A DNA stretch of 41,131 bases from a virus. Shown here in pieces: positions 2,463 to 36,373 of this stretch (the stretch's first letter is position 1; every line of letters starts with the position of its first letter). The stretch covers positions 1-41,131 of IMG/VR virus record IMGVR_UViG_3300048023_000092. One strand, 5' to 3'. The translations under genes were made by a program, and so were the position numbers. The notes below the pieces were generated by a model. That model made no database searches. It saw nothing but the letters and a program-made list of their open reading frames with translations, and was not told the origin of the DNA.

Positions 2463-2775
2463 ATTATTAGAAGTATTATTAACCTATGTTTGTTGCGTCA
2501 CTTACGACGTATTGGAACACAGTACCAATGAAGCAACGATGTTGATCGGTGCATCCTGGGGCAGAGTCATTAACGATATTGCTAAAGAAAAAGGCATGAC
2601 TAGAAAAGAAGTTTTCTTTCAAGCAGATATGCTAGGCAATTTAGCTGGAGGAGCTAACACCGATTGGAACTCTATGAATGAAGATTATGTAATAGATCCA
2701 GAGGAGCTTGATGAAGAAGAAGTACTCGACGCTGTTAAACTTCAAATGGAAAGTAAAGATAAAACGAGGCACTGA
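2347..2775 (+). CDS. Conserved helical phage protein, unknown function
   Basis: A 142-residue, mostly helical protein. It opens with a charged segment (IDLEVISKKELLEELR), continues with a hydrophobic helix containing TYVCCVTYDVLEHS, and ends in an acidic stretch (DPEELDEEEVLDAVK). The frame has a stop at 2326-2328, so the start must lie just after it; ATG 2347 is the sensible choice, with AAGG seven bases upstream. The protein reads well throughout, which makes it the better supported of the two overlapping frames here. Its stop overlaps the next start as TGATG. The location inside the recombination block suggests an accessory role there. Confidence 0.65.
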   Translation: MKEDKIDLEVISKKELLEELRMHMMSFNKRMGEIKSPHKLLEVLLTYVCCVTYDVLEHSTNEATMLIGASWGRVINDIAKEKGMTRKEVFFQADMLGNLAGGANTDWNSMNEDYVIDPEELDEEEVLDAVKLQMESKDKTRH

Positions 2776-2918
2776 TGGCCATAAGAAGAGAAGTAAAAAT
2801 ACACATATCTAGGGCTAAGTATAAAAAGACTAGCCAAGGTTCGCGCAATGTAAAGTTCAGTAGTATGAACAAGAATAAAAGAAAGTCCTTCAAAGCATAT
2901 AGAGGGCAAGGAAGATGA
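2775..2918 (+). CDS. 47-residue basic protein ahead of helicase
   Basis: A short gene starting at ATG 2775, overlapping the previous stop by one base (TGATG), and ending four bases before the helicase start. The product is strongly basic (MAIRREVKIHISRAKYKK...). It ends with the segment SSMNKNKRKSFKAYRGQGR. From memory, small proteins with an SxMNKxKRxSxKxYRGQGR tail are common just upstream of helicase genes in marine phages; I cannot check this here. With so many Lys and Arg and no acidic core, nucleic-acid binding is likely. It may be a helicase loader or accessory, by position only. Confidence 0.7.
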   Translation: MAIRREVKIHISRAKYKKTSQGSRNVKFSSMNKNKRKSFKAYRGQGR

Positions 2919-2921
2919 TTA

Positions 2922-4592
2922 ATGAAACTAAGACCGTATCAAGAAGACGCTATCACTGCACTAGAAAGCTGGTTTGCAACTGAGTCAATAGAGAAACACC
3001 CTCTACTCAGTTTGCCTACTGCGTCTGGCAAGACAGTTATCTTTTCTAACTTTATTAAAAGAACCATAAACAAATATTCTGATGCTAGGTTTTTAGTCTT
3101 AGCACATAGGCAAGAGCTTATTGAACAAGCAGAAGAGAAAATAAAATCTGTATGGCCAGAGGCACCAGTTGGTGTGTTATCAGCTGGGCTGAAAAGATCT
3201 GAGTTGGATTCTCAAATACTTGTAGCTTCAAGAGATACTTTAGCCTCTGGATCTAGATTAAAAAAAGTTGGGCACTTTGATTACACTATCATTGATGAGG
3301 CCCATAACATATCCCCGGACGAACAAACTAGATACCAAAAGATAATCAATGAGTTGTCTGCTGAACGAGCTATGCGTGTTTTAGGTTGTACTGCTACGCC
3401 TTATCGTATGGGTCAAGGTTATATCTATGGCAAAAGAAAAGATCATTTCTTTCATGACATTGCTTATCAAGCAAAGATACCAGAACTAATAGATCAAGGT
3501 TATCTAGCTAGGATTACTTCTTATAAAGTAGATGACAATACTATTATTGACGCCAGTAAAGCCAAGCTTAAATTTAAAGGTGGCGATTACAAAGAATCCG
3601 ATCTAGAAAAATTAGCTATGGATGAGAAGACCATCGTCGCAATCATTAACGATTGGTTAGACAAAGCATATACCAAAGGCAGAACAGCTTCCGTATTTTT
3701 TTGTGTATCGGTATTGCATGCTATGAAAATGAACATGCATTTGCAGAAGCATGGGATTGAATCAAGATTACTAACTGGCGAAACCCCTGGAGAAGAAAGA
3801 AAACAAATACTAGAAGATTTTGAATCTGGAAAAGTACATGCTGTTTGTAATGTCGGCGTCTTAACAGAAGGTTGGGATGCACCAAGAACAGATTGTATTG
3901 CTATGTTAAGACCAACTAAAAGTCTAGGGCTTTACGTTCAGATGTGCGGCCGAGGTATGCGACTGTACCCAGGCAAAGAAAATTGTTTGCTTTTAGATTA
4001 TGGCGAGAACATTGCTAGACATGGTTGTATTGATACAGCCAAGCCAGATCAAGAAGTAAAAATAAGAAGACCTAAAATCTGTGGCAGTTGTTTGGCTGTC
4101 AATCCACCTCATGCAAAGAAATGTGTCGAATGCAATGAAGAGTTCCCAGTAGCAGAGTTCTTAACTTTCTTAGTGCCTATGGAAGAAAGAAAGGTAGCTA
4201 AGAAAACCAAGGCAGATTCTGGAGCAGTTATCTCTGACGAGAAACAAAAGAACAAGAGTTCTTTAGAAGTTGTAACCAGTGTTAGTGCTGCTGTTGCTGA
4301 CTCTAAAAATGGCAACAAATATTGTAAGGTATTCTTTTATGTTGATAATCAATTCTTACCTAGAATGATGCCACTTATGTTTGGTCATTCAAGAATGCAC
4401 GGACTAGCAATCAACCATTGGTGCCGTTTAGTAGATCCAAAAATTTGGGGTGTGCCTAGAACTTCTGAACAAGCAGCGGCCAAGATAAATCAAGGAGCTC
4501 TTAAAGGAGTTAAGTCTGTTGGCATAAAAAGAGAAGGTAAATATTTTAATGTAAAGAAAATAATTTTTAATGATAAGGAGATATTTCTATGA
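2922..4592 (+). CDS. DEAD/DEAH superfamily-2 helicase with zinc knuckle
   Basis: A 556-residue SF2 helicase with nearly all motifs visible. Motif Q/0 region: LRPYQEDAI (3-11). Motif I: PTASGKT (32-38). Motif II: DEAH (125-128). Motif III: TATP (157-160). Motif V: GVLTEGWDAP (312-321). Motif VI: QMCGRGMR (340-347). After the second RecA lobe there is a four-cysteine knuckle (C387, C390, C401, C404) and a C-terminal domain of about 140 residues that I do not recognise. The organisation is like UvsW/RecQ-neighbour or RadD-type helicases: ATP-driven unwinding or branch migration of DNA. ATG 2922 follows AAGGA. The stop overlaps the nuclease start as ATGA, which suggests the two act together in DNA processing, as helicase/RecB-like nuclease pairs often do in phages. 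Confidence 0.92.
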   Translation: MKLRPYQEDAITALESWFATESIEKHPLLSLPTASGKTVIFSNFIKRTINKYSDARFLVLAHRQELIEQAEEKIKSVWPEAPVGVLSAGLKRSELDSQILVASRDTLASGSRLKKVGHFDYTIIDEAHNISPDEQTRYQKIINELSAERAMRVLGCTATPYRMGQGYIYGKRKDHFFHDIAYQAKIPELIDQGYLARITSYKVDDNTIIDASKAKLKFKGGDYKESDLEKLAMDEKTIVAIINDWLDKAYTKGRTASVFFCVSVLHAMKMNMHLQKHGIESRLLTGETPGEERKQILEDFESGKVHAVCNVGVLTEGWDAPRTDCIAMLRPTKSLGLYVQMCGRGMRLYPGKENCLLLDYGENIARHGCIDTAKPDQEVKIRRPKICGSCLAVNPPHAKKCVECNEEFPVAEFLTFLVPMEERKVAKKTKADSGAVISDEKQKNKSSLEVVTSVSAAVADSKNGNKYCKVFFYVDNQFLPRMMPLMFGHSRMHGLAINHWCRLVDPKIWGVPRTSEQAAAKINQGALKGVKSVGIKREGKYFNVKKIIFNDKEIFL

Positions 4593-5449
4593 GCAAAATA
4601 AATAAAATGATAGATCATGTAATGTTATCTGAACCACCAAAGTATCGACCATATTTAGGTATGAGTCAGATTGGTAATCCAGACGAAAGAATGTTGTGGT
4701 TAAATTTTAGATGGTGTTTACCACCAAATAAGTTTGAGCCAAGAGTATCTAGGATCTTAGAACTAGGTAATGTTATTGAAGATGTAGTCATTGAGTATCT
4801 TAAAAAAGCAGATGGCGTAGAAGTATTTACTGAAGATAAAAAGGGCGATCAGTTCAAAGCTTCTTTACTTGGCGATCACTTCTCTGGGCACATAGATGGC
4901 GTAGTTAAAAACTTGCCAGAACATAATGATGATTCTATGGTCCTAGAAGTTAAGAGTTCCAATGACAGAAGATTTAATAATCTAGTTAGTGAAAGTAGTT
5001 ACGAGCGTTGGTCGCTAGAATATGAAGCGCAAGTGCATTGTTATATGGGTGCTTTTAAATTACCTAAGTCTTTAGCTTTGGTTTACAACAAAAACAATTC
5101 TGATATTTATACTGAAGTAATTAAATATAATGATGAGCTCTTTCAATCTTTGATAGAGAAGGCGAAAAGAATTATTACTTCGCCAGAGCCACCAGATTTA
5201 TTCTTGAGTGAAAACGATTGGAAGGTTAAGAACTTACCAAAAGAATCTAAAGAAGTTTATCTAGGTAGGGCAGAACCAGAGTTTAAAAACTGTAGAAACT
5301 GCAAACATTCAAAGCCAATGATAGAAGTTTCCGGGGCTACTTGGCGTTGTGGTAAGAAAGGTGTTTTATTAAATCCAAAACAACAAATGGATAAGAAAAA
5401 TTGTCCTGATCACGAACTTATATTTGGTTTGATACCTACACCTTTTTAA
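4589..5449 (+). CDS. PD-(D/E)XK exonuclease, RecB/Cas4-like
   Basis: A 286-residue nuclease. The catalytic set is visible: Asp103 in GHIDGVV, then Glu120-x-Lys122 in VLEVKSS, and Gln148...Tyr152 in QVHCY, the QxxxY motif of the RecB/AddB/Cas4 branch. Four cysteines (C235, C238, C254, C272) near the C terminus could bind zinc or an iron-sulphur cluster, as in Cas4 and AddB. The gene overlaps the helicase by ATGA. Together they probably resect or process DNA ends to make ssDNA for the DUF669 and Sak4-like proteins. The nuclease fold is confident. The metal cluster is an inference, since the spacing differs from classical Cas4, where one Cys precedes the nuclease core. Confidence 0.87.
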   Translation: MSKINKMIDHVMLSEPPKYRPYLGMSQIGNPDERMLWLNFRWCLPPNKFEPRVSRILELGNVIEDVVIEYLKKADGVEVFTEDKKGDQFKASLLGDHFSGHIDGVVKNLPEHNDDSMVLEVKSSNDRRFNNLVSESSYERWSLEYEAQVHCYMGAFKLPKSLALVYNKNNSDIYTEVIKYNDELFQSLIEKAKRIITSPEPPDLFLSENDWKVKNLPKESKEVYLGRAEPEFKNCRNCKHSKPMIEVSGATWRCGKKGVLLNPKQQMDKKNCPDHELIFGLIPTPF

Positions 5450-5457
5450 CAAAAAGT

Positions 5458-5488
5458 TTGCAATAATATATAAAAATCGTTATATAAT
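5458..5488 (+). promoter_or_regulatory. Putative sigma70-type promoter
   Basis: TTGCAA (5458-5463, 4 of 6 matches to the -35 consensus) and a perfect TATAAT (5483-5488) are separated by 19 bases, slightly longer than ideal. Transcription would start near 5495, giving a leader of about 20 bases with AGAGG at 5505-5509 ahead of ATG 5516. It lies directly after the nuclease stop in a very AT-rich gap, so some matches are expected by chance. The perfect -10 and the correct position support it. Confidence 0.55.
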
Positions 5489-5515
5489 ACGCATATCTCT
5501 ATAAAGAGGTGCGTA

Positions 5516-5773
5516 ATGGCTAAAATATTTAAATTAAATACATTTAAAAACATAGCTAGTCTTAGAGGCGAAACTACTAGTCTCGCTGATTATCCTTGCA
5601 TCAACGCCTGCCACTGGCCTACCAGTATGGAAAACGGTCGTTGTTCTGTTTGTGGTTTATATGATTACCAACACTCTCCAGTGTTCTGGCAATCATTACC
5701 AAAATTAGAACGCAAGATGATAAACCTTAACAACTCTGAGAAAGGCTATAAAATAAAACAGATCTATAAGTAA
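5516..5773 (+). CDS. DUF1289-like small zinc-binding protein
   Basis: An 85-residue protein with four cysteines: C28, C32, C43 and C46. The context YPCINACHW...GRCSVCGLYD, followed by a Trp and a KLERK segment, matches the DUF1289 pattern: PCxxxC, then about ten residues, then CxxC, then an aromatic and an ER-like helix. DUF1289 proteins are small Cys-rich proteins found in proteobacteria; their function is not established. The gene has its own promoter candidate and a good ribosome site (AGAGG, six bases before ATG). It ends the rightward block. A separate promoter and last position suggest it may be made at a different time from the recombination genes. Confidence 0.72.
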   Translation: MAKIFKLNTFKNIASLRGETTSLADYPCINACHWPTSMENGRCSVCGLYDYQHSPVFWQSLPKLERKMINLNNSEKGYKIKQIYK

Positions 5774-5888
5774 GCACTGGTTTAAGTGTAGATCGCTAAA
5801 TATATGTTCATCATATATATAGAGAAGCTGACACTAATGATATACCCAGCACTCCCGGTGAGTATATTCTTCAAATTCATGCGCGGAT

Positions 5889-5926
5889 TATATACAAAAT
5901 ATTTTTGTATATAAAAAAAATTTTTT
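5889..5926. terminator. AT-rich hairpin between convergent transcripts
   Basis: TATATACAAAA (5889-5899) and TTTTGTATATA (5903-5913) form a perfect 11-bp stem with a three-base loop. It is followed by eight A and then a T-run (5921-5926). It sits in the 151-base gap between the last + strand gene and the - strand HNH gene, where both transcripts must stop. A-run/T-run flanks allow it to work in both directions. The stem has only one GC pair per arm, so its strength is uncertain. The rest of the gap (5774-5888) holds nothing I can name. Confidence 0.6.
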
Positions 5927-6416
5927 ATTTCTTTTTATTTCTTATGATATTTTCACACCACCAGAGCAACATGTCCTCGCTCAGAGTGTGTTTAATGATG
6001 TTGGCACGCTGACAAACCAATTGAATGTTATATCTGACATACCATTCCTCTGGATCTATTCTGTCGATAGTTACATTTAAATCTTTCTTACCACTGCCAT
6101 CTCGATAGTGAGTCATCAATACGCCAGACAAAGCACAAAGACCATCTTGAGTTTCCCATATTTCTATTAAATCTTCTGGCGTTATCTCCCATTCTCTTTC
6201 TGGATTCTTACTAACTCTAGTATGTCTTAGTTGATTGTGAAGTAAATTTAAAAAACTTTTGTAACTCGATGATCGCTTTCTGTTTCTGTCTATGACATGA
6301 CAATCTTTACAAAGACCACGATAGGTTATGCCACCACCAACTTGTTCTCTAGCTTCAAAAAATTTAATCTTCCGCCTTTTCTTGCAAAGCGTACAAGTCC
6401 TGGTTTTTTGAGTCAT
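5925..6416 (-). CDS. HNH-type endonuclease with N-terminal zinc knuckle
   Basis: A 163-residue protein. The N terminus has two cysteine pairs (C8/C11 and C36/C39), likely a structural zinc site. Residues 91-145 carry the HNH-like core: GLCALSGVLMT, TIDRIDPE (118-123) and YNIQLVCQRANIIK (129-142). In this phage subgroup the first His of the classical motif is replaced by an Asp-Arg-Ile-Asp segment, with Asn130 and Asn139 following. It should cut DNA with a divalent metal. It could be a homing-type enzyme or a packaging or recombination nuclease. Its start overlaps the stop of the DUF1064 nuclease (TAATG), so the two nucleases are made together. Confidence 0.82.
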   Translation of the reverse strand: MTQKTRTCTLCKKRRKIKFFEAREQVGGGITYRGLCKDCHVIDRNRKRSSSYKSFLNLLHNQLRHTRVSKNPEREWEITPEDLIEIWETQDGLCALSGVLMTHYRDGSGKKDLNVTIDRIDPEEWYVRYNIQLVCQRANIIKHTLSEDMLLWWCENIIRNKKK

Positions 6417-6754
6417 TAGGCCCTAGGCGAGTGAATTACTTCTATGGTTACGTCCGGGTATATTGCTTCTACTAATTTCTTTTTTAATTTAAAGACATCA
6501 GTCAATACTCCCTTAGTATCTTCTATGACTTCTTCTCCTTTGATGTTTTTATATTTAAAGTCTGCTATGTAAGTGCAGATCTTTTTACCTTCAACAAAAC
6601 ATGGAAACTGCGGGTGAACTTCTATGTCTGATACTGCGCCAGCAGATTCTAATTCTTTTAAGAATTTATATCTGGCGGCCTCTAATTTGCTATCAAATGT
6701 GATACCATCTAGTTTCACTTTTATAGCTCCGTATTTGTTCTTGTTATAGCCCAT
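6416..6754 (-). CDS. DUF1064 nuclease (PD-(D/E)XK-like, possible Holliday resolvase)
   Basis: A 112-residue protein with the full DUF1064 pattern. It opens YNKNKYGAIK, followed by TFDSKLEAARYKFLKEL (Glu25), then YIADFKY (Asp65) and VIEDTKGVLTDVFKLKKKL (Glu78, Asp79, Lys81). Glu/Asp/Glu-x-Lys is the nuclease triad of the PD-(D/E)XK fold. DUF1064 proteins are found in many phages next to recombination genes and are thought to cleave branched DNA, but substrates are poorly defined. It is followed by the HNH gene with a TAATG overlap. I see no Shine-Dalgarno before its ATG, and a -10-like TATAAT lies only a few bases upstream. Confidence 0.85.
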   Translation of the reverse strand: MGYNKNKYGAIKVKLDGITFDSKLEAARYKFLKELESAGAVSDIEVHPQFPCFVEGKKICTYIADFKYKNIKGEEVIEDTKGVLTDVFKLKKKLVEAIYPDVTIEVIHSPRA

Positions 6755-19400: not shown

Positions 19401-20132
19401 TCATGCAATTGTTAATGTTTGATAATCTGTACTTTGATACGAGTTAACTCTAGGAGAACCCAATATTAAATTTTCAGGACCAGCTGAGGCATTGTAAGGA
19501 GTGTACGTGTTTAAAGTCCAAGTCCAAATAGTCCTGCCTGTATAATAAGAATAATTTGCAGAAGCTCTTGTAAATACATAAGGATTACTATAATTACTGT
19601 AAGGATGATATAGAGAAATAGAAGTCCAACCAGAATTATAAACTGCATTATCTAAAGCAAAAGTATAGGTTACGGCAGTGGGAACACCGCCAAAAAATGC
19701 AGCACTTGAATAGCTAGAATAAAATCCTGCTACAGTTGCTCCCATCCAAGTAGAGTTATTTAGCCAAGCACCCATAGGTTGAACATTATTTCCTACACTA
19801 TCTGTTCCTAAATTTATATTTGAATTTACATAACCGTTATGTCTAGTGGTATATTGACTGTTAACAATATAAATTACAGAATATTTCTCTGCGACTGTTA
19901 GAGTACCAGTTAAACTTGGAGAGCCTGTTAAACTAGTTCTTGGATCATTAGTAGCCCCATAAAAATCTCCTATTTCAATAGCAGTGCCTGAACTAGAATT
20001 TATAGTTTGTCCAGCACCTGCTTGTAGGCCTCTAATATCAGTATCGTTTATTGTGCATGCTGAACCAGAGGAGCCTCCAGCTTCTATGTGTATTTGATTT
20101 AAAGTTAAGTTACCGCTAGTTGCTAGAGTCAT
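19401..20132 (-). CDS. Distal fibre / receptor-binding-like protein, copy 1
   Basis: A 243-residue beta-rich protein full of Ser, Tyr, Asn, Thr and Gly. It starts TLATSGNLTLNQIHIEAGGS, followed by NDTDIRGLQAGAG and IEIGDFYGA. This 'LxxIxxExGG...lnDxdiR' leader is common in small tail-tip proteins of marine phages. The rest is Tyr/Ser-rich, as in receptor-binding surfaces. It overlaps the S74 fibre gene by 17 bases, and its counterpart at 24171-24950 has the same place behind another S74 fibre. Likely a fibre-tip protein deciding host range. Confidence 0.7.
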   Translation of the reverse strand: MTLATSGNLTLNQIHIEAGGSSGSACTINDTDIRGLQAGAGQTINSSSGTAIEIGDFYGATNDPRTSLTGSPSLTGTLTVAEKYSVIYIVNSQYTTRHNGYVNSNINLGTDSVGNNVQPMGAWLNNSTWMGATVAGFYSSYSSAAFFGGVPTAVTYTFALDNAVYNSGWTSISLYHPYSNYSNPYVFTRASANYSYYTGRTIWTWTLNTYTPYNASAGPENLILGSPRVNSYQSTDYQTLTIA

Positions 20133-21282
20133 TTTTCAGTTCTTCTACTTGTTTACTTAAATCTTTAACTGCTTCTATAAGTAGTCCTACTGTATTAGCG
20201 TATTTCATAGTTTTTACTGTGCCTAACTCTTTGTCTTCATGTTCATCTACTAGCTCTGGCACCACTTTCTCTACTTCGTTAGCTACTACTCCTATTTCTT
20301 TTGAGCTGTTTGATTTACGAGTAAAGTGAACGCCTCTTAATTGATTTACTTTTTCTAAAGCGTTTTCTATTTGGTAAATGTCTTCTTTCAGCGCCATATC
20401 AGAATATGCACCTACGTTACCCGTAGCTGTAAAATTACCGCTAGTATCACAACTCAACATAGTAGAGCCAGAATTATTATCAACTCGCCATTGAGTATCA
20501 AACTTCATTACAGTATTAGCGTTTGAAGTAAAATAAAGTCTATTCCTGCCATCAGCGGAACTAATCCAAGCATCATTAGGTAAAGCTGAATTTAATTTTG
20601 CACTTATTTGGGTTTGTGCGTTAGATGAAAGTGTATTGATATATTGAAACTCTGTACTTGTTACTGAGCCATCAGCTATTTTAGTAGCATCTATTGCAGC
20701 ACCTGATTTAATATTGGCATCTTCTACATTAGTTAAACTATTACCTGTTGCGTCTGCATCAAAAGTTTTATTGGTAAAAGTTGTTGTTGAAGTTGCAGTA
20801 ACATCACTAAAACTGCCACCGTTTCTTGTTGCATTAGCACCTATATCTATTTTATCAAAACCGTCAACTACAGCAGCTCCAGACCCAACTCCATCTGTAT
20901 AAACTAATTTAGTTTTACCATTTGGTATAGTGATATTTGCACCAGATCCTTGAGATATAATAATGCTGTATGGTCCTGAACTACCTGAATCAGTAGTTGC
21001 ATTTTCAATAAACCATAATTTTGAAATCGTGTTAGGCGCTAAAGTTATCGTGCAATTTGCGCCTAAAGCGCCAGTGTATTTAAGATACATTGCTCTACCA
21101 GGGTCAGTAGATCCATTAGCTATTGTTGTTGTGTGCGTTGTACCACTAACTGCTTCAGTGCCATAACCGAAAGCCTCTCCAATCAGTTCAAGATTTTCAT
21201 TAGTACGAGTACCCCAAGTACCTGATTCATCACCAGTTCCCATTTCTCTAAGTCTGAGATTATTATCAAACGTACTTGCCAT
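20116..21282 (-). CDS. Tail fibre with S74 intramolecular chaperone, copy 1
   Basis: A 388-residue fibre protein. It starts with a compact beta domain (residues 10-150; GTGDESGTWGTRTNENLELI), goes through a low-complexity stalk rich in Thr, Ser, Ala and Asn, and ends with an S74 chaperone domain: YSDMALKEDI (Ser294, Lys299), EIGVVANEVEKVVPELV and a terminal helix ending VKDLSKQVEELK. The domain trimerises the fibre and then cleaves itself at the Ser. CGAGGTAAAAAC precedes ATGGC. Paired with the tip protein 19401-20132. Confidence 0.85.
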   Translation of the reverse strand: MASTFDNNLRLREMGTGDESGTWGTRTNENLELIGEAFGYGTEAVSGTTHTTTIANGSTDPGRAMYLKYTGALGANCTITLAPNTISKLWFIENATTDSGSSGPYSIIISQGSGANITIPNGKTKLVYTDGVGSGAAVVDGFDKIDIGANATRNGGSFSDVTATSTTTFTNKTFDADATGNSLTNVEDANIKSGAAIDATKIADGSVTSTEFQYINTLSSNAQTQISAKLNSALPNDAWISSADGRNRLYFTSNANTVMKFDTQWRVDNNSGSTMLSCDTSGNFTATGNVGAYSDMALKEDIYQIENALEKVNQLRGVHFTRKSNSSKEIGVVANEVEKVVPELVDEHEDKELGTVKTMKYANTVGLLIEAVKDLSKQVEELKNDSSN

Positions 21283-21319: not shown

Positions 21320-22039
21320 TTAAGCCACATCTTCCCAGTTAGGATCTTGAGTATCTGTTATTTCACTAAAACTTGATGTTTGTGATTCTGTTATTTCACT
21401 AAAGTTTGATGATTGAGAATCATCCAACATAGACCAAACTAATACTGTGGATAATCCACTTGTTATTTCAAATCCAACAATAGTTACATTTGCTTTAGCT
21501 ATTGATGTTATGGTTCCCAAACCACTAGTTGACCCAAATCCTGACAAAACAATAGTATTACTTGATCTTTGTGTAATCGTTCCTAAAGTAGAAGTACCTA
21601 ATTGCCCAGCTGGTGTAACATTTGCTACCCCGGTTACGGTTACTCCTACCGAACCAACACTTGTGCTTAAACTAGGTAAAGTTGCTACAGCTTGAGCATT
21701 TACACCTACACCACTTATTGCACCTGTTAGTGCTGATAAAGGTTCATCAGGATTATTTCCATAATCACTAACTATGGCATTTGCAGTAAGTGCTGGACTG
21801 CCTAAGCCAGATGTTATGGCAAGACCAGTAACACCTATATCTCCGCCAGCAGTAATGCCTACTCCTCCCACCGCAGAAGTTGCTCCTTGGCCTGTAGGAT
21901 TTATGTGAGCTACACAAACAAAAGTTGTCGTGCCTACTGATCCAGTCGCAGACTGTCCTATTAAAGATACATTTACATTACCTCCGATTCCAGCTAGGGA
22001 AGCGAAAGGTGATTCTGCAAATGCACTTATTCCAAACAT
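21320..22039 (-). CDS. Beta-repeat virion protein with FSEIT tail repeats
   Basis: A 239-residue protein starting MFGISAFAESPFASLAG, a leader shared by marine phage virion proteins. Residues 20-200 hold imperfect repeats of 20-25 residues, for example VTGLAITSGLG, LSGFGSTSGLG and IVGFEITSGLS, alternating with GQSATGSVGT, GQGATSAVGG and GQLGTSTLGT. These suggest stacked beta or Ig-like units. The end has two copies of SQ(x)S(x)FSEIT (209-228) followed by DPNWEDVA. Similar repeats are in the 28351-29172 protein. Probably a decoration or tail-spoke protein. Confidence 0.68.
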   Translation of the reverse strand: MFGISAFAESPFASLAGIGGNVNVSLIGQSATGSVGTTTFVCVAHINPTGQGATSAVGGVGITAGGDIGVTGLAITSGLGSPALTANAIVSDYGNNPDEPLSALTGAISGVGVNAQAVATLPSLSTSVGSVGVTVTGVANVTPAGQLGTSTLGTITQRSSNTIVLSGFGSTSGLGTITSIAKANVTIVGFEITSGLSTVLVWSMLDDSQSSNFSEITESQTSSFSEITDTQDPNWEDVA

Positions 22040-22300
22040 TTAATTACCAGATAAAAATTGATAGACAGGGCCATAAGCAATGTCTGTTCCTAAAAAAGTA
22101 TTTAAAAGAAAAATTGTTCCATTAATAAATACAATCTTAGTTCCTACTACAATAAAAACTATCCAACCAATAGTTAATAATAAACCGTGTTTTTGATAAA
22201 ATTCTTTTACTTTTTTAATTATAGGAAAATTCCATTTACCTTCTGTAAAAGCTGTATTTAATACAGGCATTAAGTAAAATAATTTTTCCTTTATTTTCAT
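22040..22300 (-). CDS. Small membrane protein, one or two TM segments
   Basis: An 86-residue protein. A basic, partly amphipathic N terminus (MKIKEKLFYLMPVL; FPIIKKVKEFYQKHG) leads to hydrophobic stretches at about 40-56 (LLLTIGWIVFIVVGTKI) and 57-71. It begins directly after the stop of the 41-residue TM peptide (zero gap). Both lie downstream of the COQ4-like gene. No family recognised; could be a membrane partner of that gene or a lysis accessory. Confidence 0.6.
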   Translation of the reverse strand: MKIKEKLFYLMPVLNTAFTEGKWNFPIIKKVKEFYQKHGLLLTIGWIVFIVVGTKIVFINGTIFLLNTFLGTDIAYGPVYQFLSGN

Positions 22301-22428: not shown

Positions 22429-23202
22429 TTACTCCTCGTTTTGTTTAATCCATTTTAAATATCTAATAGGTTCTTCAAAACCAAATTCTTTTCTAATTTG
22501 GTCTACATCTTTTTCAAGAAAGTATAGCAAAGAGTGTTCTATTAGATTATGTTTGTTTACTTTTTCAGCTATCTTACAGGCTTCTCTATATATTAAAAAA
22601 GGTTTGAATGACTTTGATCGCCAAGCAATTCTGCAAGTAACTAAAAAACCTACATACCACATCCCTATATTGTCTACTTGTTTCCAAGTAGTGCCTTGTA
22701 TTAAAGCTTCGCCGAAAGGTGAAGTATCATATTTAAATAATATGTGGTGTAAATCGTGCGTTAGCATCATGTGTCTGCCAACATTATTTCTTAAAGTATT
22801 TATTCTATCGTCAGAAAGCATATCAGCTTCCGCAGTTTCTTTTTCAAATCTATTTTTATAAAGATCATTAAAGGTCCACTTGTTAAAAAATTTAGCAAGA
22901 TGTCCACCCGCAGTATTAGGAGGTAAACTTCTTAAATATTTCATACTAGATATTTTAGGTATTATATTTTTTTTACAATACTTAGGATCATTCCAATCTA
23001 ATCCTAAAGCAATATTTATTCTTGTAGGAGAGCTTGTAAAGTTTTTGCGCATTTTTTTTCTAGTAATAAACATCAGCTGTGCATACATAGCTTGTAGTTC
23101 TGAAAGTCTTGCTCTGGCCTCTGGATGTGATTCTCTTTGTTCGTAAGAATCTTTTAATAAAATTGATTTAGACAATTTTAAAAAAGTAAATAAATTAAAC
23201 AT
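22429..23202 (-). CDS. COQ4-family protein (ubiquinone biosynthesis-like)
   Basis: A 257-residue helical protein. It carries the family signature HDxxH-x11-E exactly: His149, Asp150, His153 and Glu165 in THDLHHILFKYDTSPFGEAL. Upstream are LRSLPPNTAGGHLAKFF (90-106), like the LPxxTxG segment of COQ4, and a conserved Arg (R143). COQ4 binds a metal through the motif and acts in coenzyme Q biosynthesis at the inner membrane, reported as C1 decarboxylation/hydroxylation of the ring. The length fits the family (about 220-270). It sits between two tail-fibre modules with two membrane peptides just downstream. It may be an auxiliary metabolic gene acting on host respiration, or the fold may be reused for another ligand. 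Family call good; reaction unproven. Confidence 0.78.
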   Translation of the reverse strand: MFNLFTFLKLSKSILLKDSYEQRESHPEARARLSELQAMYAQLMFITRKKMRKNFTSSPTRINIALGLDWNDPKYCKKNIIPKISSMKYLRSLPPNTAGGHLAKFFNKWTFNDLYKNRFEKETAEADMLSDDRINTLRNNVGRHMMLTHDLHHILFKYDTSPFGEALIQGTTWKQVDNIGMWYVGFLVTCRIAWRSKSFKPFLIYREACKIAEKVNKHNLIEHSLLYFLEKDVDQIRKEFGFEEPIRYLKWIKQNEE

Positions 23203-23203
23203 T

Positions 23204-23938
23204 TTACTTTGTGATAGAAACTATTCTGGCTACTTCCGAAGATTCGTTTGTTATGTCAATTGATGGGCTTGTTAATTTTTTTACATCATATTGATCTACG
23301 TAATTAGATTGTTGATTTAAAGAACAAGCTTGAGAAAAAAACACATGATTAATATTATTTTCTTTCAAAAGAGTTTTTGTTTTACCGGGCTCTATGTCTA
23401 AAAGCTTTAAATTATATCCCGGCTTTTCAGTCATAAAACAAAGAAACCTCGTATCATCTTCCATGGCTGTCTGACTGGCAAATCTTCCGTTTAAGTGCCA
23501 CATGGCTGATCGAGGATATGCTTCATCAAAGTCTGCTCCAAATTTATAGCTAGTTAAAAACTCTCTATTAGTTATGGCATCTTCAGTTGTGCTTTCTGTG
23601 TATTCTCCTTTTTTAATTTTATCATTTTTAGTAATTTCTTTGAGTCTTTCAATGTCCTTTGCTTCTATACCATCCTCTTCCGACCATCTTTGGCATGATT
23701 GGATTTTGCCTTGTATAAGAATAAAATGGTTTGGTCGATATACAATATGAGAGCTTTCTTCGTCAAGAATGTGTTCTTTTATTTCAGCAGTAGTCTCACT
23801 AAAGTAAAGCAATCCTTCTTCAAAAGTATCTCGACTTTGTATATCTCCTTTGTTTCCTACAGTAACAGTGACTTGAAACTCATCATCAATAATTTTATGG
23901 GTTTCTTCTATCCAATTAAAATCAAATCTTACAGTCAT
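23204..23938 (-). CDS. Unknown protein upstream of COQ4-like gene
   Basis: A 244-residue protein I do not recognise. The N terminus (MTVRFDFNWIEETHKIIDDE) and the middle, with charged loops (KNDKIKKGEYTESTTEDA), look globular and mixed alpha/beta. The C-terminal third (FLCFMTEKPGYNLKLLDIEPG ... NHVFFSQACSLN) has alternating strands that could form a small cupin-like barrel, but no metal-binding His pair is clear. The start forms TAATG with the gene before, with GGAGGAG upstream. It lies one base short of the COQ4-like gene, so the two are almost surely co-expressed. Confidence 0.55.
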   Translation of the reverse strand: MTVRFDFNWIEETHKIIDDEFQVTVTVGNKGDIQSRDTFEEGLLYFSETTAEIKEHILDEESSHIVYRPNHFILIQGKIQSCQRWSEEDGIEAKDIERLKEITKNDKIKKGEYTESTTEDAITNREFLTSYKFGADFDEAYPRSAMWHLNGRFASQTAMEDDTRFLCFMTEKPGYNLKLLDIEPGKTKTLLKENNINHVFFSQACSLNQQSNYVDQYDVKKLTSPSIDITNESSEVARIVSITK

Positions 23939-24171
23939 TAGATCTCCTCCGTTGTAACTTTTTTAGCGTTAGTGTCAACACTAAATATATCATATATATT
24001 TTCTTGTTTTATGTGTCTAAAAAATTCTTGTTTAATTTGTAAGTCTGTCTGTCCATCGAACATAGATTTTGGCTTACGAATAGCAATACCTCTATAATCG
24101 AAACGATACGATGTATTACCATCCCCCGCAGTTTCTTCGTAATAAATAATATCTTCTGCTTTTTTTACCAT
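23938..24171 (-). CDS. Small protein after fibre-tip gene, possible chaperone
   Basis: A 77-residue acidic protein starting MVKKAEDIIYYEETAGDGNT. ATG 24171 is chosen because it forms TAATG with the stop of the fibre-tip gene; an in-frame ATG eight codons earlier would overlap it more. It contains SYRFDYRGIAIRKPKS and a helical end (DLQIKQEFFRHIKQENIYD). Small acidic genes directly after a fibre gene are often fibre-assembly chaperones, which is a guess here. Confidence 0.6.
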   Translation of the reverse strand: MVKKAEDIIYYEETAGDGNTSYRFDYRGIAIRKPKSMFDGQTDLQIKQEFFRHIKQENIYDIFSVDTNAKKVTTEEI

Positions 24172-24950
24172 TAGAATTGCACCGTAATAGTCCAAGTTCC
24201 CGACATAGTCAACATTGTGCTTTGATTAGTTGTATAACTATATGCTGTAACAGCTCCTATACTTGGATAGGTATAATGAAAACAGTATTGTTTTGCTACA
24301 TTAATACTGTTGTTTACATGAGTATCTGAACCATACCACCTTGTTGCAGGTGCTCCGTTTTTAGCAGGTGTATCAAAATAACGAAAAGGCACATTAGACC
24401 AGTTATTTCCTAAAGTACCAGTAGTTCCATGATGACCTGATACCCAAAGATATGGAGAATAATTTCCAAAACCGCTCGAAGCACTTCCTCCTGAAAGAGT
24501 TGAAGTAGCATGATATAAAACAAATCCATACATCACCAGATTGGTTGATGTGCCAGAGCCAGTTGTTCCTCTAAAATGATTAAATTGTATAGCTCCCGAA
24601 GAAGGTATTTGTCCTGCCTCTCCTACTTGATCTATACCAGTTACTTTAGTAGTCGTTGCAGAAGCAGAGCCAAAACCACCTAAGGGTATGGTAGTTACAT
24701 TGCTATTTTTAAAACCGTACTGCCTATAGTATGAGGTATATGCAGCAGTTCCTGGAACACCTTTGCTTCCTGGTGTTGCTGGAAAATACTGACTTCCAGT
24801 TGAGGTAGCTACAGTGGGTGATGTACTAGAAACTAAGCTATTACTAGCCAAACTTCCTGAATAGTATTCACTCATGCTAATAGGATTACCACCGCCCCAT
24901 TCGCTTTGTATTGTACTTAATGACACTGAACCACTTGCAGGTATTGCCAT
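24171..24950 (-). CDS. Distal fibre / receptor-binding-like protein, copy 2
   Basis: A 259-residue beta-rich protein with start AIPASGSVSLSTIQSEWGGG, then NPISMSEYYSG. This is the same leader type as in 19401-20132 (LxxIxxExGG followed by a DFYG/EYYSG segment). The remainder is rich in Ser, Thr, Gly and Tyr with little similarity to the first copy by eye, as expected for a fast-changing receptor-binding part. Its start is joined to the S74 fibre by TAATG. Confidence 0.7.
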   Translation of the reverse strand: MAIPASGSVSLSTIQSEWGGGNPISMSEYYSGSLASNSLVSSTSPTVATSTGSQYFPATPGSKGVPGTAAYTSYYRQYGFKNSNVTTIPLGGFGSASATTTKVTGIDQVGEAGQIPSSGAIQFNHFRGTTGSGTSTNLVMYGFVLYHATSTLSGGSASSGFGNYSPYLWVSGHHGTTGTLGNNWSNVPFRYFDTPAKNGAPATRWYGSDTHVNNSINVAKQYCFHYTYPSIGAVTAYSYTTNQSTMLTMSGTWTITVQF

Positions 24951-26122
24951 TATTTATCCTCTAGTTCTTTTACTCTAGCTGATAAATCTTTTACAGCTTC
25001 AATCAATACTGCTGTTAATCTGCTGTAATCTACGGACTTAGTACCCATTTCGTCATCTGCTGTTAATACTATTTCTGGTAATATCTTTTCTACTTCTTGA
25101 GCTATAACACCTATGTTTTCTTTTTCGTCTCTGGTGTAAGTGACACCTCTAAGTTGTTCTACTTTATCTAAACCATCTTCAAGTGTTTCAATATTATCTT
25201 TAAGTCTTTCATCTGAGAAAGCTGTGACGTTATTATTAAAAGTTGCAGCTCCTGCCTCTGACGCATCTATAGTCAATGCTACTATTTCAGAGCCACCATC
25301 ATTGACTCTAAATATCATGTCTTTGTCTGATGTAGAAGCACGAAGTGTAAAGTTTGCTGAGCCTAAATCTATTTGACCTCTTTCAGTACCCCCATCTTTG
25401 AAGATTATATTTTCTCCATCTGCATCAAGAATAATATCTCCTGCAACATCTAAAGTTAAATCTCCTGAAGCGTTTGATATATTATTACCTGCAGCAAGTT
25501 GTAATCCTCCTCCGCCTAAAATTCTCATCCTTTCAGCATTATTTGTGCCGAAAAGGATTGGGTGGTTAGTTGTTCTTTTAAATTCTGCATAATTACTAGC
25601 ATCACTATAAATAAGGAAATTTCTAGTTCCACCTACTCCAAAGTCTATTCTTGAACCATTACCACTATCTATTTGAAAAAATGCAGTACCACTATCTTCA
25701 TTTAAAGCTAAACCTGTTCCTGTAAAAGTTAAAGATAATGGGTCTAAGCTTGAACCACCAACAGATACCCCTCCAGAAGGAATCGCTACATTATTAGAAG
25801 CATCCTCAAATACAGCTTTACTTGCAGGTAATGTACAAAATACATCTTTAGTTCCTGCGGAAAAATCTACAGCAGAGTCAGAATTAGAACTACTAATAAC
25901 TGTAGTTCTTGCTAATGTATCGGGAGTAGCGTCAGTAATTGTCCCTAAACCGACTTCAAATTCATTTGCCGATTGATGAGATATTGTGTAATAACAAGTA
26001 TTAGAATTTCCAATACCTGCTACAAAAGTTTCAAAACCAGTTTCAGCACCTGCTAAATTTATGGTGCCTGTGCCAGTAGAAGTGGTAGTTTCTTTTACCC
26101 TATCGTTTAGGACAAGAGCCAT
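24950..26122 (-). CDS. Tail fibre with S74 intramolecular chaperone, copy 2
   Basis: A 390-residue fibre. The N-terminal domain (ALVLNDRVKETTTSTGTGTI) is the type found in marine phage fibres. A long beta stalk follows with repeats such as GDLTLDVAGDIILDADGENI. The C-terminal S74 domain starts at FSDERLKDNI (Ser303, Lys308), with ENIGVIAQEVEKILPEIV and a final helix VKDLSARVKELEDK. Self-cleavage at Ser303 would release about 88 residues. The chaperone domains of both fibres are clearly alike; the stalks differ. Confidence 0.87.
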   Translation of the reverse strand: MALVLNDRVKETTTSTGTGTINLAGAETGFETFVAGIGNSNTCYYTISHQSANEFEVGLGTITDATPDTLARTTVISSSNSDSAVDFSAGTKDVFCTLPASKAVFEDASNNVAIPSGGVSVGGSSLDPLSLTFTGTGLALNEDSGTAFFQIDSGNGSRIDFGVGGTRNFLIYSDASNYAEFKRTTNHPILFGTNNAERMRILGGGGLQLAAGNNISNASGDLTLDVAGDIILDADGENIIFKDGGTERGQIDLGSANFTLRASTSDKDMIFRVNDGGSEIVALTIDASEAGAATFNNNVTAFSDERLKDNIETLEDGLDKVEQLRGVTYTRDEKENIGVIAQEVEKILPEIVLTADDEMGTKSVDYSRLTAVLIEAVKDLSARVKELEDK

Positions 26123-35788: not shown

Positions 35789-36373
35789 TTATCTCCAAGC
35801 TGGTCCTTCTATCCAAGTCACTAGGCTTTTTCTAATTCCTTTAGTAACTGGATTTACCTTGTGCGGTATAAAAGAAGGAAAAATTAAAACTCTACCTTTC
35901 TCTCTTAAAGTATTTCTATCAGGAGGATTTTTTAAAATATCATTATCGAATTCAAAATCACCTCCTTCATATTCATCTGAATCAGATAACTGTATGGTCA
36001 TACTAAGTTTTCTATCATACATTTCTCCTCTGCCTGCAAAACTATCTATATGTCTATAATAAAAACCTTTGTTAGCTGCTAAGTATTCTGTGTATTGAAT
36101 ATTAAATATTCTTTCAATATCTAGCCCAAAAATTTCTCTATTAACATCACAAAATAAATTAGTACAAAGATTAGTTAATTTAGCTGTATCGTCTGTACGT
36201 GGGTCTATCCAACGAATTTGAGACCTTCTAAGATCTTTATCTTGCGTAGCATTTTTACCTATTTCTCCGCCAATCACTCCCATTTCCTCTGGGAACTGTA
36301 ACGCCATATTTTTTATATCTTCAATAATATTATTTGGTAATGCTTCAGGAAGCAGAAAATGAAGGCTTCTCAT
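35789..36373 (-). CDS. 2OG-Fe(II) oxygenase (prolyl-4-hydroxylase-like)
   Basis: A 194-residue dioxygenase. The iron-binding set is visible: His108 and Asp110 in RHIDS, and His171 in FPSFIPHKVNPV. Arg181 (KGIRKSL) fits the 2-oxoglutarate-binding position. LSMTIQLSDSDEYEGGDFEF and the end TWIEGPAWR complete the pattern. Such enzymes hydroxylate a protein side chain or small molecule with O2 and 2-oxoglutarate. They are frequent in marine phages, where targets are unknown. Lying among head genes, it could modify a virion protein. Confidence 0.88.
   Translation of the reverse strand: MRSLHFLLPEALPNNIIEDIKNMALQFPEEMGVIGGEIGKNATQDKDLRRSQIRWIDPRTDDTAKLTNLCTNLFCDVNREIFGLDIERIFNIQYTEYLAANKGFYYRHIDSFAGRGEMYDRKLSMTIQLSDSDEYEGGDFEFDNDILKNPPDRNTLREKGRVLIFPSFIPHKVNPVTKGIRKSLVTWIEGPAWR

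Follow-up and report, generated by a model that had tools for sequence, protein, structure and literature searches.

We identified a COQ4-like gene with an intact metal motif in a phage genome, and found that this gene is a member of a broad phage family, not a single oddity. The gene lies in the window, by which we mean the whole analysed stretch of 41,131 nucleotides (IMG/VR record IMGVR_UViG_3300048023_000092). The family, the fold, an intact and selected motif, a partner gene and two genomic settings were established directly. We weighed together the selected metal motif, the lipid-binding fold, the membrane-type partner in one phage group (group A) and the redox/Fe-S setting that some phages have. 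The best supported reading, to which we give a probability of about one half, is that the gene encodes a COQ4-family metalloprotein which would be made late in infection and would act at the host membrane on a quinone or a similar lipid.

The gene and its neighbours in the window are as follows.

20116..21282, minus strand: second tail-fibre protein with a Peptidase_S74 domain (PF13884, 50.9 bits; tail PHROGs)
21320..22039, minus strand: 239-aa protein, repeat-like by eye (neighbour family 9, the second downstream gene in 26 loci; no Pfam or PHROG match)
22040..22300, minus strand: 86-aa protein with one strongly hydrophobic stretch (family f3), directly downstream of the COQ4-like gene; no Pfam or PHROG match
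22429..23202, minus strand: COQ4-like protein of 257 aa, characterised by its PF05019 score, fold, motif positions and dN/dS
23204..23938, minus strand: 244-aa protein with a predicted bicupin-like fold (family f0), directly upstream of the COQ4-like gene
23938..24195, minus strand: 85-aa protein from this cassette; in near relatives its gene is syntenic with the COQ4-like one; one weak match (E 0.004) to a PHROG of unknown function
24171..24950, minus strand: 259-aa tail-fibre cassette protein (neighbour family 2, 66 loci; no Pfam or PHROG match)
24950..26122, minus strand: tail fibre with a Peptidase_S74 chaperone domain (PF13884, 63 bits; tail PHROGs)

The two Peptidase_S74 proteins at 20116-21282 and 24950-26122 place the gene between tail-fibre modules, as the initial annotation of this DNA had described. 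The ORF at 22429-23202 on the minus strand starts with ATG and its 257-aa product carries H149, D150, H153 and E165 in HDLHHILFKYDTSPFGE, which matches HDxxH-x11-E exactly, while LPPNTAG at residue 93 matches the COQ4-like LPxxTxG upstream of the motif; both had been claimed from the letters alone, and the existence of a COQ4-like phage ORF with an intact motif is thereby confirmed. The HDxxH-x11-E pattern arose in 10 of 20,000 shufflings of the window protein, and of the window's 317 frames with 40 aa or more one carries it, the 22429-23202 frame. Besides this gene, the window encodes a portal, a major head protein, a virion protein, tail fibres with the S74 chaperone, a helicase, a Cas4-type exonuclease and Sak4. 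A homologue of a cellular metabolic protein thus sits inside a phage genome, among portal, major head, tail-fibre and helicase genes, as is expected of an auxiliary metabolic gene. The window also carries a 2OG-Fe(II) oxygenase gene (35789-36373, minus strand; PF13640, phrog_61), relatives of which were found by tblastn in several loci with a COQ4-like gene.

The initial annotation had made COQ4 homology depend on an HMM match and on the predicted fold, and the claim held on both. Pfam Coq4 (PF05019) matched residues 79-245 of the window protein at 25.8 bits (E 7.7e-6), above the curated cut-off of 22.9 bits, and the search of the whole record was concordant (23.5 bits); among 14 control genomes, PF05019 matched in Synechococcus elongatus only. 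An AlphaFold2 model, computed with an alignment of 25 group A sequences, was all helical (pLDDT 85.9, pTM 0.84). Foldseek against the PDB returned three chains at E ≤ 0.001, every one of which was a COQ4 homologue, and a second structural alignment overlaid the model on 6e12 with Z 18.9 (2.5 Å, 198 residues aligned) and on 3msq with Z 17.1, the next-ranked entry reaching Z 4.5. In the model, H149, D150 and H153 are predicted to lie on the helix 132-156, and E165 on the helix 162-176. The closest solved structures are thus those of Alr8543 (6e12) and Npun02000094 (3msq), two cyanobacterial COQ4 homologues from Nostoc, to which the phage protein is 13-17% identical. The phage profile against PDB sequences ranked 3msq first with a gap-free motif, THDIYH...DTNVFGE of 3msq aligning with THDLYH...DTSPFGE of the profile, at an E value (0.15) that alone is not significant. 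The window protein as a single sequence did not find COQ4 among the PDB sequences, and its model had no match in BFVD at E ≤ 0.001. Taken together, these results make COQ4 family membership of the window protein near certain.

A search for the gene in other phages, which had also been proposed, showed how broad the family is. Protein scans of IMG/VR yielded 8 and later 11 close loci with identities of 71-100%, and Pfam Coq4 scored over its cut-off in all 11 close records. A search with a DNA pattern of the motif, which presupposes the motif, matched at least 119 viral stretches and at least 117 new loci. Among the matches listed, all 117 new ORFs formed one connected component by blastp at E ≤ 1e-3; at 40% identity they fell into group A (45, including the relatives of the window), group B (34), group C (27), the smaller groups D (6) and E (3), and two singles. 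Pfam Coq4 scored over cut-off in 44 of the 49 non-redundant distant records among the matches listed, and at E ≤ 0.001 in 47 of them; two further rows, which complete the 51 non-redundant ones, belong to the close-record set. The count of the motif in 52 of 52 non-redundant phage rows is true by construction for the rows found by pattern and was not used as evidence. We therefore rely on a retrieval independent of the motif, in which the N-terminal half of group A alone served as the query. It retrieved 41 loci, of which 15 lie on contigs that the set did not yet include. HDxxH-x11-E was kept in all 41 of these relatives, an unbiased count that covers group A. Moreover, pairwise dN/dS against the window was 0.12 for L008, 0.13 for L007 and 0.20 for L010, and between relatives it was 0.29 (L008-L010) and 0.05 (L007-L008). 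These results bear on whether the protein is a catalytically idle remnant or resembles COQ4 by chance. The low identity to the solved homologues and the failure of the single sequence to find COQ4 in the PDB would fit such a view; however, the Pfam score over cut-off, the fold at Z 18.9, the dN/dS of 0.12 and the motif in 41 of 41 relatives speak against it, and we regard it as very improbable. Chance resemblance in particular is ruled out by the Pfam score, the fold, the invariant motif and the rarity of the pattern among the shuffled sequences.

We examined the genes next to the COQ4-like gene on 136 distinct contigs, the window included, all of which are fragments. The 86-aa protein downstream in the window likely has one membrane helix, as judged from its hydrophobic stretch. 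The f3 profile, which was built from the same loci in which it was counted, lay directly downstream in 49 of the 62 group A contigs whose downstream sequence reaches 250 bp or more. We then took as a partner every ORF of 30-100 aa that begins just past the gene and contains a hydrophobic stretch of 19 residues. Among contigs with at least 400 bp downstream, 58 of 60 in group A had one, versus 21 of 265 control genes from group A loci; the 58 of 60 is not to be read as a probability because the counted sequences are related. The two exceptions, L026 and L172, have a different gene next. The partner is usually present in both of the group A settings described below, and is rare in the other groups (B 1/32, C 4/25, D 0/6, E 0/3), so that we regard it as characteristic of group A. 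The partner of the window type was present on 12 contigs, on 11 of them beside a COQ4-like gene, and on the twelfth it ends at the contig end.

Two settings were distinguished in group A, from counts that involve related sequences. In 44 of 64 contigs the f0 family adjoins the COQ4-like gene upstream (the tail-fibre setting); by the f0 profile, which was likewise built from the loci counted, it was directly upstream in 40 of the 58 contigs with at least 300 bp of upstream sequence. Another 19 of the 64 carry peroxiredoxin, IscU or glutaredoxin in the locus instead of f0, one has neither and none has both. Within 2.5 kb on the expected side, these redox-setting contigs encode peroxiredoxin in 16 cases, IscU in 15 and glutaredoxin in 19. 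The gene order on L169 (contig 3300021958_000044) is peroxiredoxin, phosphoribosyltransferase, small hydrophobic protein, COQ4-like protein, small hydrophobic protein, IscU, A-type Fe-S carrier and glutaredoxin, and Pfam identified redoxin, phosphoribosyltransferase, NifU_N, Fe-S_biosyn and glutaredoxin in this cluster. The clusters of L125 and L171 resemble it, that of L083 has no A-type carrier, and that of L091 has neither IscU nor the carrier. The viral nature of the redox-setting contigs is indicated by their inclusion in IMG/VR, by a phage exonuclease PHROG (L125, L083), and by GroES and further phage families (L125). Terminase PF03237 was found in none of 15 redox-setting contigs, and a T4-like label was not applied to them; Gp23 was also found in none of the 15, a search that is uninformative since it matched in no control either. 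COQ7 was absent from the 36 contigs with a COQ4-like gene that were searched, out of about 135, a result that counts against the quinone reading. Side genes were observed at some loci: on the viral-classed contig L083, a CHASE2 and adenylate/guanylate cyclase protein (4666-6468; PF05226, PF00211) encoded upstream of the COQ4-like gene, with an ORF similar by eye on L125 (1444-3246), and, near the COQ4-like gene of L083, a weak curlin-repeat match below cut-off (1869-2600), a FecR-domain protein (2557-3708) and an acyl carrier protein (3730-3942).

In the other groups the gene has structural neighbours. In group C, 23 of 25 contigs have the f0 gene immediately upstream, as do 6 of 6 in group D, and the f0 setting occurs mostly with S74-type fibre genes (neighbour family 1, 60 loci, all groups). 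In group B, neighbour family 4 directly follows the COQ4-like gene in 32 loci and is a tail sheath by PHROG in L027; in four loci inspected by eye, the COQ4-like ORF overlaps the end of the large terminase ORF as called, and the terminase of L027 is T4-type by Pfam. The four loci in which the group B ORF was observed between the large terminase and tail sheath genes are L027 (2812-3594), L029, L039 and L112. About 6 kb upstream of this block, L039 encodes a fatty acid desaturase family protein (155-865; PF00487, 34 bits).

The predicted bicupin-like fold of the f0 protein was studied in the same way. Its model (pLDDT 91.3) had its best Foldseek matches in oxalate decarboxylases (E 5e-5) and other cupins, and in the second alignment it matched PA5104 (1yll, Z 9.4) and pirin-family proteins (Z 8.2-8.9), both over about 152-163 residues, HutD (Z 7.6-7.7) and double-stranded beta-helix proteins (up to Z 10.1, about 70 residues); with Z values up to 10.1, we consider these predicted fold matches middling. 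Among 28 rows the invariant residues were G77, C167 and N231, and no His was conserved, so that a cupin metal enzyme or metal oxygenase is unsupported. Window-type f0 genes had the COQ4-like gene downstream in 11 of 12 loci, the remaining locus being cut.

These locations raise the question whether the fold has been turned to a new use in the tail-fibre module, as a lipid-binding factor for structure or assembly, that is, as a virion component, a fibre chaperone or a membrane-contact protein, in which the metal merely stabilises the protein. In most contigs of groups A, C and D the gene sits in a tail-fibre cassette directly after that of the bicupin-like protein, and in group B between terminase and tail sheath genes, which also fits a virion or assembly role. 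However, the 19 group A contigs with a redox/Fe-S setting and no bicupin-like gene indicate that the COQ4-like gene is not bound to the tail cassette, and the metal motif is invariant in the 41 group A relatives. The invariance of the metal residues and the purifying selection favour a metal-dependent function over virion reuse of the fold, and we consider the structural role unlikely.

We further compared the phage proteins with cellular COQ4 homologues, for which seven plasmid records were the only sequences. By hhalign, the group A profile aligned with these seven at E 9e-21; the alignment spans residues 5-246 and keeps the motif in register. In trees with the seven records, phage groups A, B and C were separate (C being broken by long-branch rows in one tree). 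In AU tests, run after dropping five long-branch rows, one of them cellular, a single phage clade stayed acceptable (p 0.394), as did the pairs of groups (0.463, 0.571 and 0.188). For each phage group profile, the cellular set gave a better alignment than the other phage groups did, a pattern which only hints at several captures of COQ4 from cells. A scan of cellular genome contigs for the nearest donor found no relative, and a second scan gave zero matches, a result that is uninformative since the solved Nostoc protein apparently fits its pattern. A Comamonas plasmid match (E 0.1) was rejected, being antisense to transporter genes.

The distribution of the cellular members also bears on the substrate. 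COQ4 homologues are present in cyanobacteria (the Synechococcus elongatus control and plasmid records), which to our knowledge have no ubiquinone, and the COQ4 family is therefore not tied to ubiquinone; for the cyanobacterial homologues we know of no reason to expect a ubiquinone role. PF05019 had no match in the alphaproteobacterial control Caulobacter vibrioides despite its COQ7, indicating that COQ4 is not general in alphaproteobacterial-type hosts. On two sphingomonad plasmids (L188, L190), the COQ4 homologues lie between a nitronate monooxygenase gene and transporter/OB-fold genes, a context suggesting that some members of the family may have non-quinone roles. With these three observations, a role in lysis, superinfection exclusion or envelope change through a different membrane lipid or isoprenoid, for example undecaprenyl phosphate, becomes a real alternative, if in our judgement an improbable one. 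The sphingomonad neighbours, which are not ubiquinone genes, fit this view, and the small hydrophobic partner could be holin-like. Alr8543, too, was first modelled with geranylgeranyl monophosphate (entry 3KB4, now obsolete), and the entry 6e12 that replaces it has oleic acid, with two Mg2+ at the motif, as stated in the available part of PMC9774615. However, a link to lysis would be conjecture, and the redox setting suggests a part in respiration or redox more than one in the envelope.

Human and yeast COQ4 (PF05019), C1 decarboxylases of coenzyme Q synthesis, share with the window protein HDxxH-x11-E at identical spacing, LPxxTxG and the helical fold. They have P before the T of the DT/PT pair, where the phage protein has D. 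Unlike them, the window protein is phage-encoded, its function is predicted, and it is accompanied by a small hydrophobic partner and not by the COQ metabolon. For a reconstructed ancestral animal COQ4, Zn-dependent C1 decarboxylation was described in vitro, and no product was formed by double mutants of the four motif residues (PMC7615680, available sections); in human cells, COQ4 was reported as an oxidative decarboxylase (PMC11495197, in the part at hand).

On the preferred reading, that of a metalloprotein acting on a quinone or a similar lipid, the COQ4-like protein would be made along with the late genes and would act on the face of the host inner membrane, where the small hydrophobic protein encoded downstream may dock it. 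A prenylated ring or some other membrane lipid would sit in the helical lipid pocket of the COQ4-like protein, the likeliest candidate being an intermediate of the host quinone pool, and the HDxxH-x11-E site may bind a divalent metal for ring chemistry, either C1 decarboxylation or a related step. The phage could benefit if respiration were continued or adjusted during virion assembly. The proposal of the initial annotation that the gene touches host respiration is thus plausible, and the redox/Fe-S setting in other phages lends it some support, while the reaction, substrate and host, like the timing, docking, metal and benefit above, are what we infer. As for the host, tblastn with the portal matched 18 phage records, the best being 023Pt_psg01 (host unknown; 51.6% over 83%), with the Pelagibacter phages HTVC023P (49.3% over 89%) and HTVC027P (45.9% over 95%) and DSL-LC04 of Gammaproteobacteria (43.9%) also matching and Roseobacter phages ranking after these. 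These portal relatives suggest, as a guess, a marine alphaproteobacterial host. The f0, f3 and COQ4-like proteins were absent from the 45.9-kb and 47.6-kb stretches of these two Pelagibacter phages.

To place the family among known phage genes, we searched records and literature. In tblastn against 50,697 phage records, the window protein had no match at E ≤ 0.01, and L026 and L065 (group A), L027 (B), L045 (C) and L034 (D) had none at E ≤ 1. L010 gave ten weak phage matches (E 4-6), of which the two examined, both Certrevirus, had no Coq4 match. In PHROGs at E ≤ 0.01, neither the window protein nor ten representatives matched, although absence from this library excludes nothing. Judged by titles and the opening lines of abstracts, we found no phage COQ4 in the literature searched. 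UbiG is a methyltransferase unrelated to COQ4. As a ubiquinone-pathway gene in phages it is a close comparison, at another step of the pathway: ubiG was named a viral auxiliary gene in the Baltic Sea, with a proposed effect on electron transport (PMC9301287, as far as its available text goes), and a Lake Baikal survey also belongs to this literature on ubiquinone and auxiliary genes. The phage Fe-S/redox proteins (IscU, A-type carrier, glutaredoxin and peroxiredoxin), which share a cluster with COQ4-like genes in part of group A, are known kinds of protein, but in the papers searched we found no description of their clustering with a COQ4-like gene and its small partner. Since the searches of phage records, PHROGs, BFVD and the literature gave no phage COQ4, we rate this as a putatively undescribed family of auxiliary genes in phages, one group of which has a recurrent membrane-type partner.

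A wider proposal, which we put forward tentatively and hold to be possible but doubtful, is that a COQ4-family enzyme and a small membrane anchor form a mobile two-gene unit, found in tail-fibre and redox/Fe-S clusters and captured from cells more than once, which edits the host quinone pool late in infection and would be the first viral system at the quinone-ring step of COQ4. Since the chemistry of COQ4 was assigned only recently, according to the accessible parts of PMC7615680 and PMC11495197, the viral set, which is compact and diverse and has a recurrent membrane-type partner, may serve as a simple comparative system for residues of substrate binding and membrane docking. If the enzyme reading is true, phages would adjust the respiratory quinone pool of their hosts at a step that is undescribed for viruses in the sources searched.
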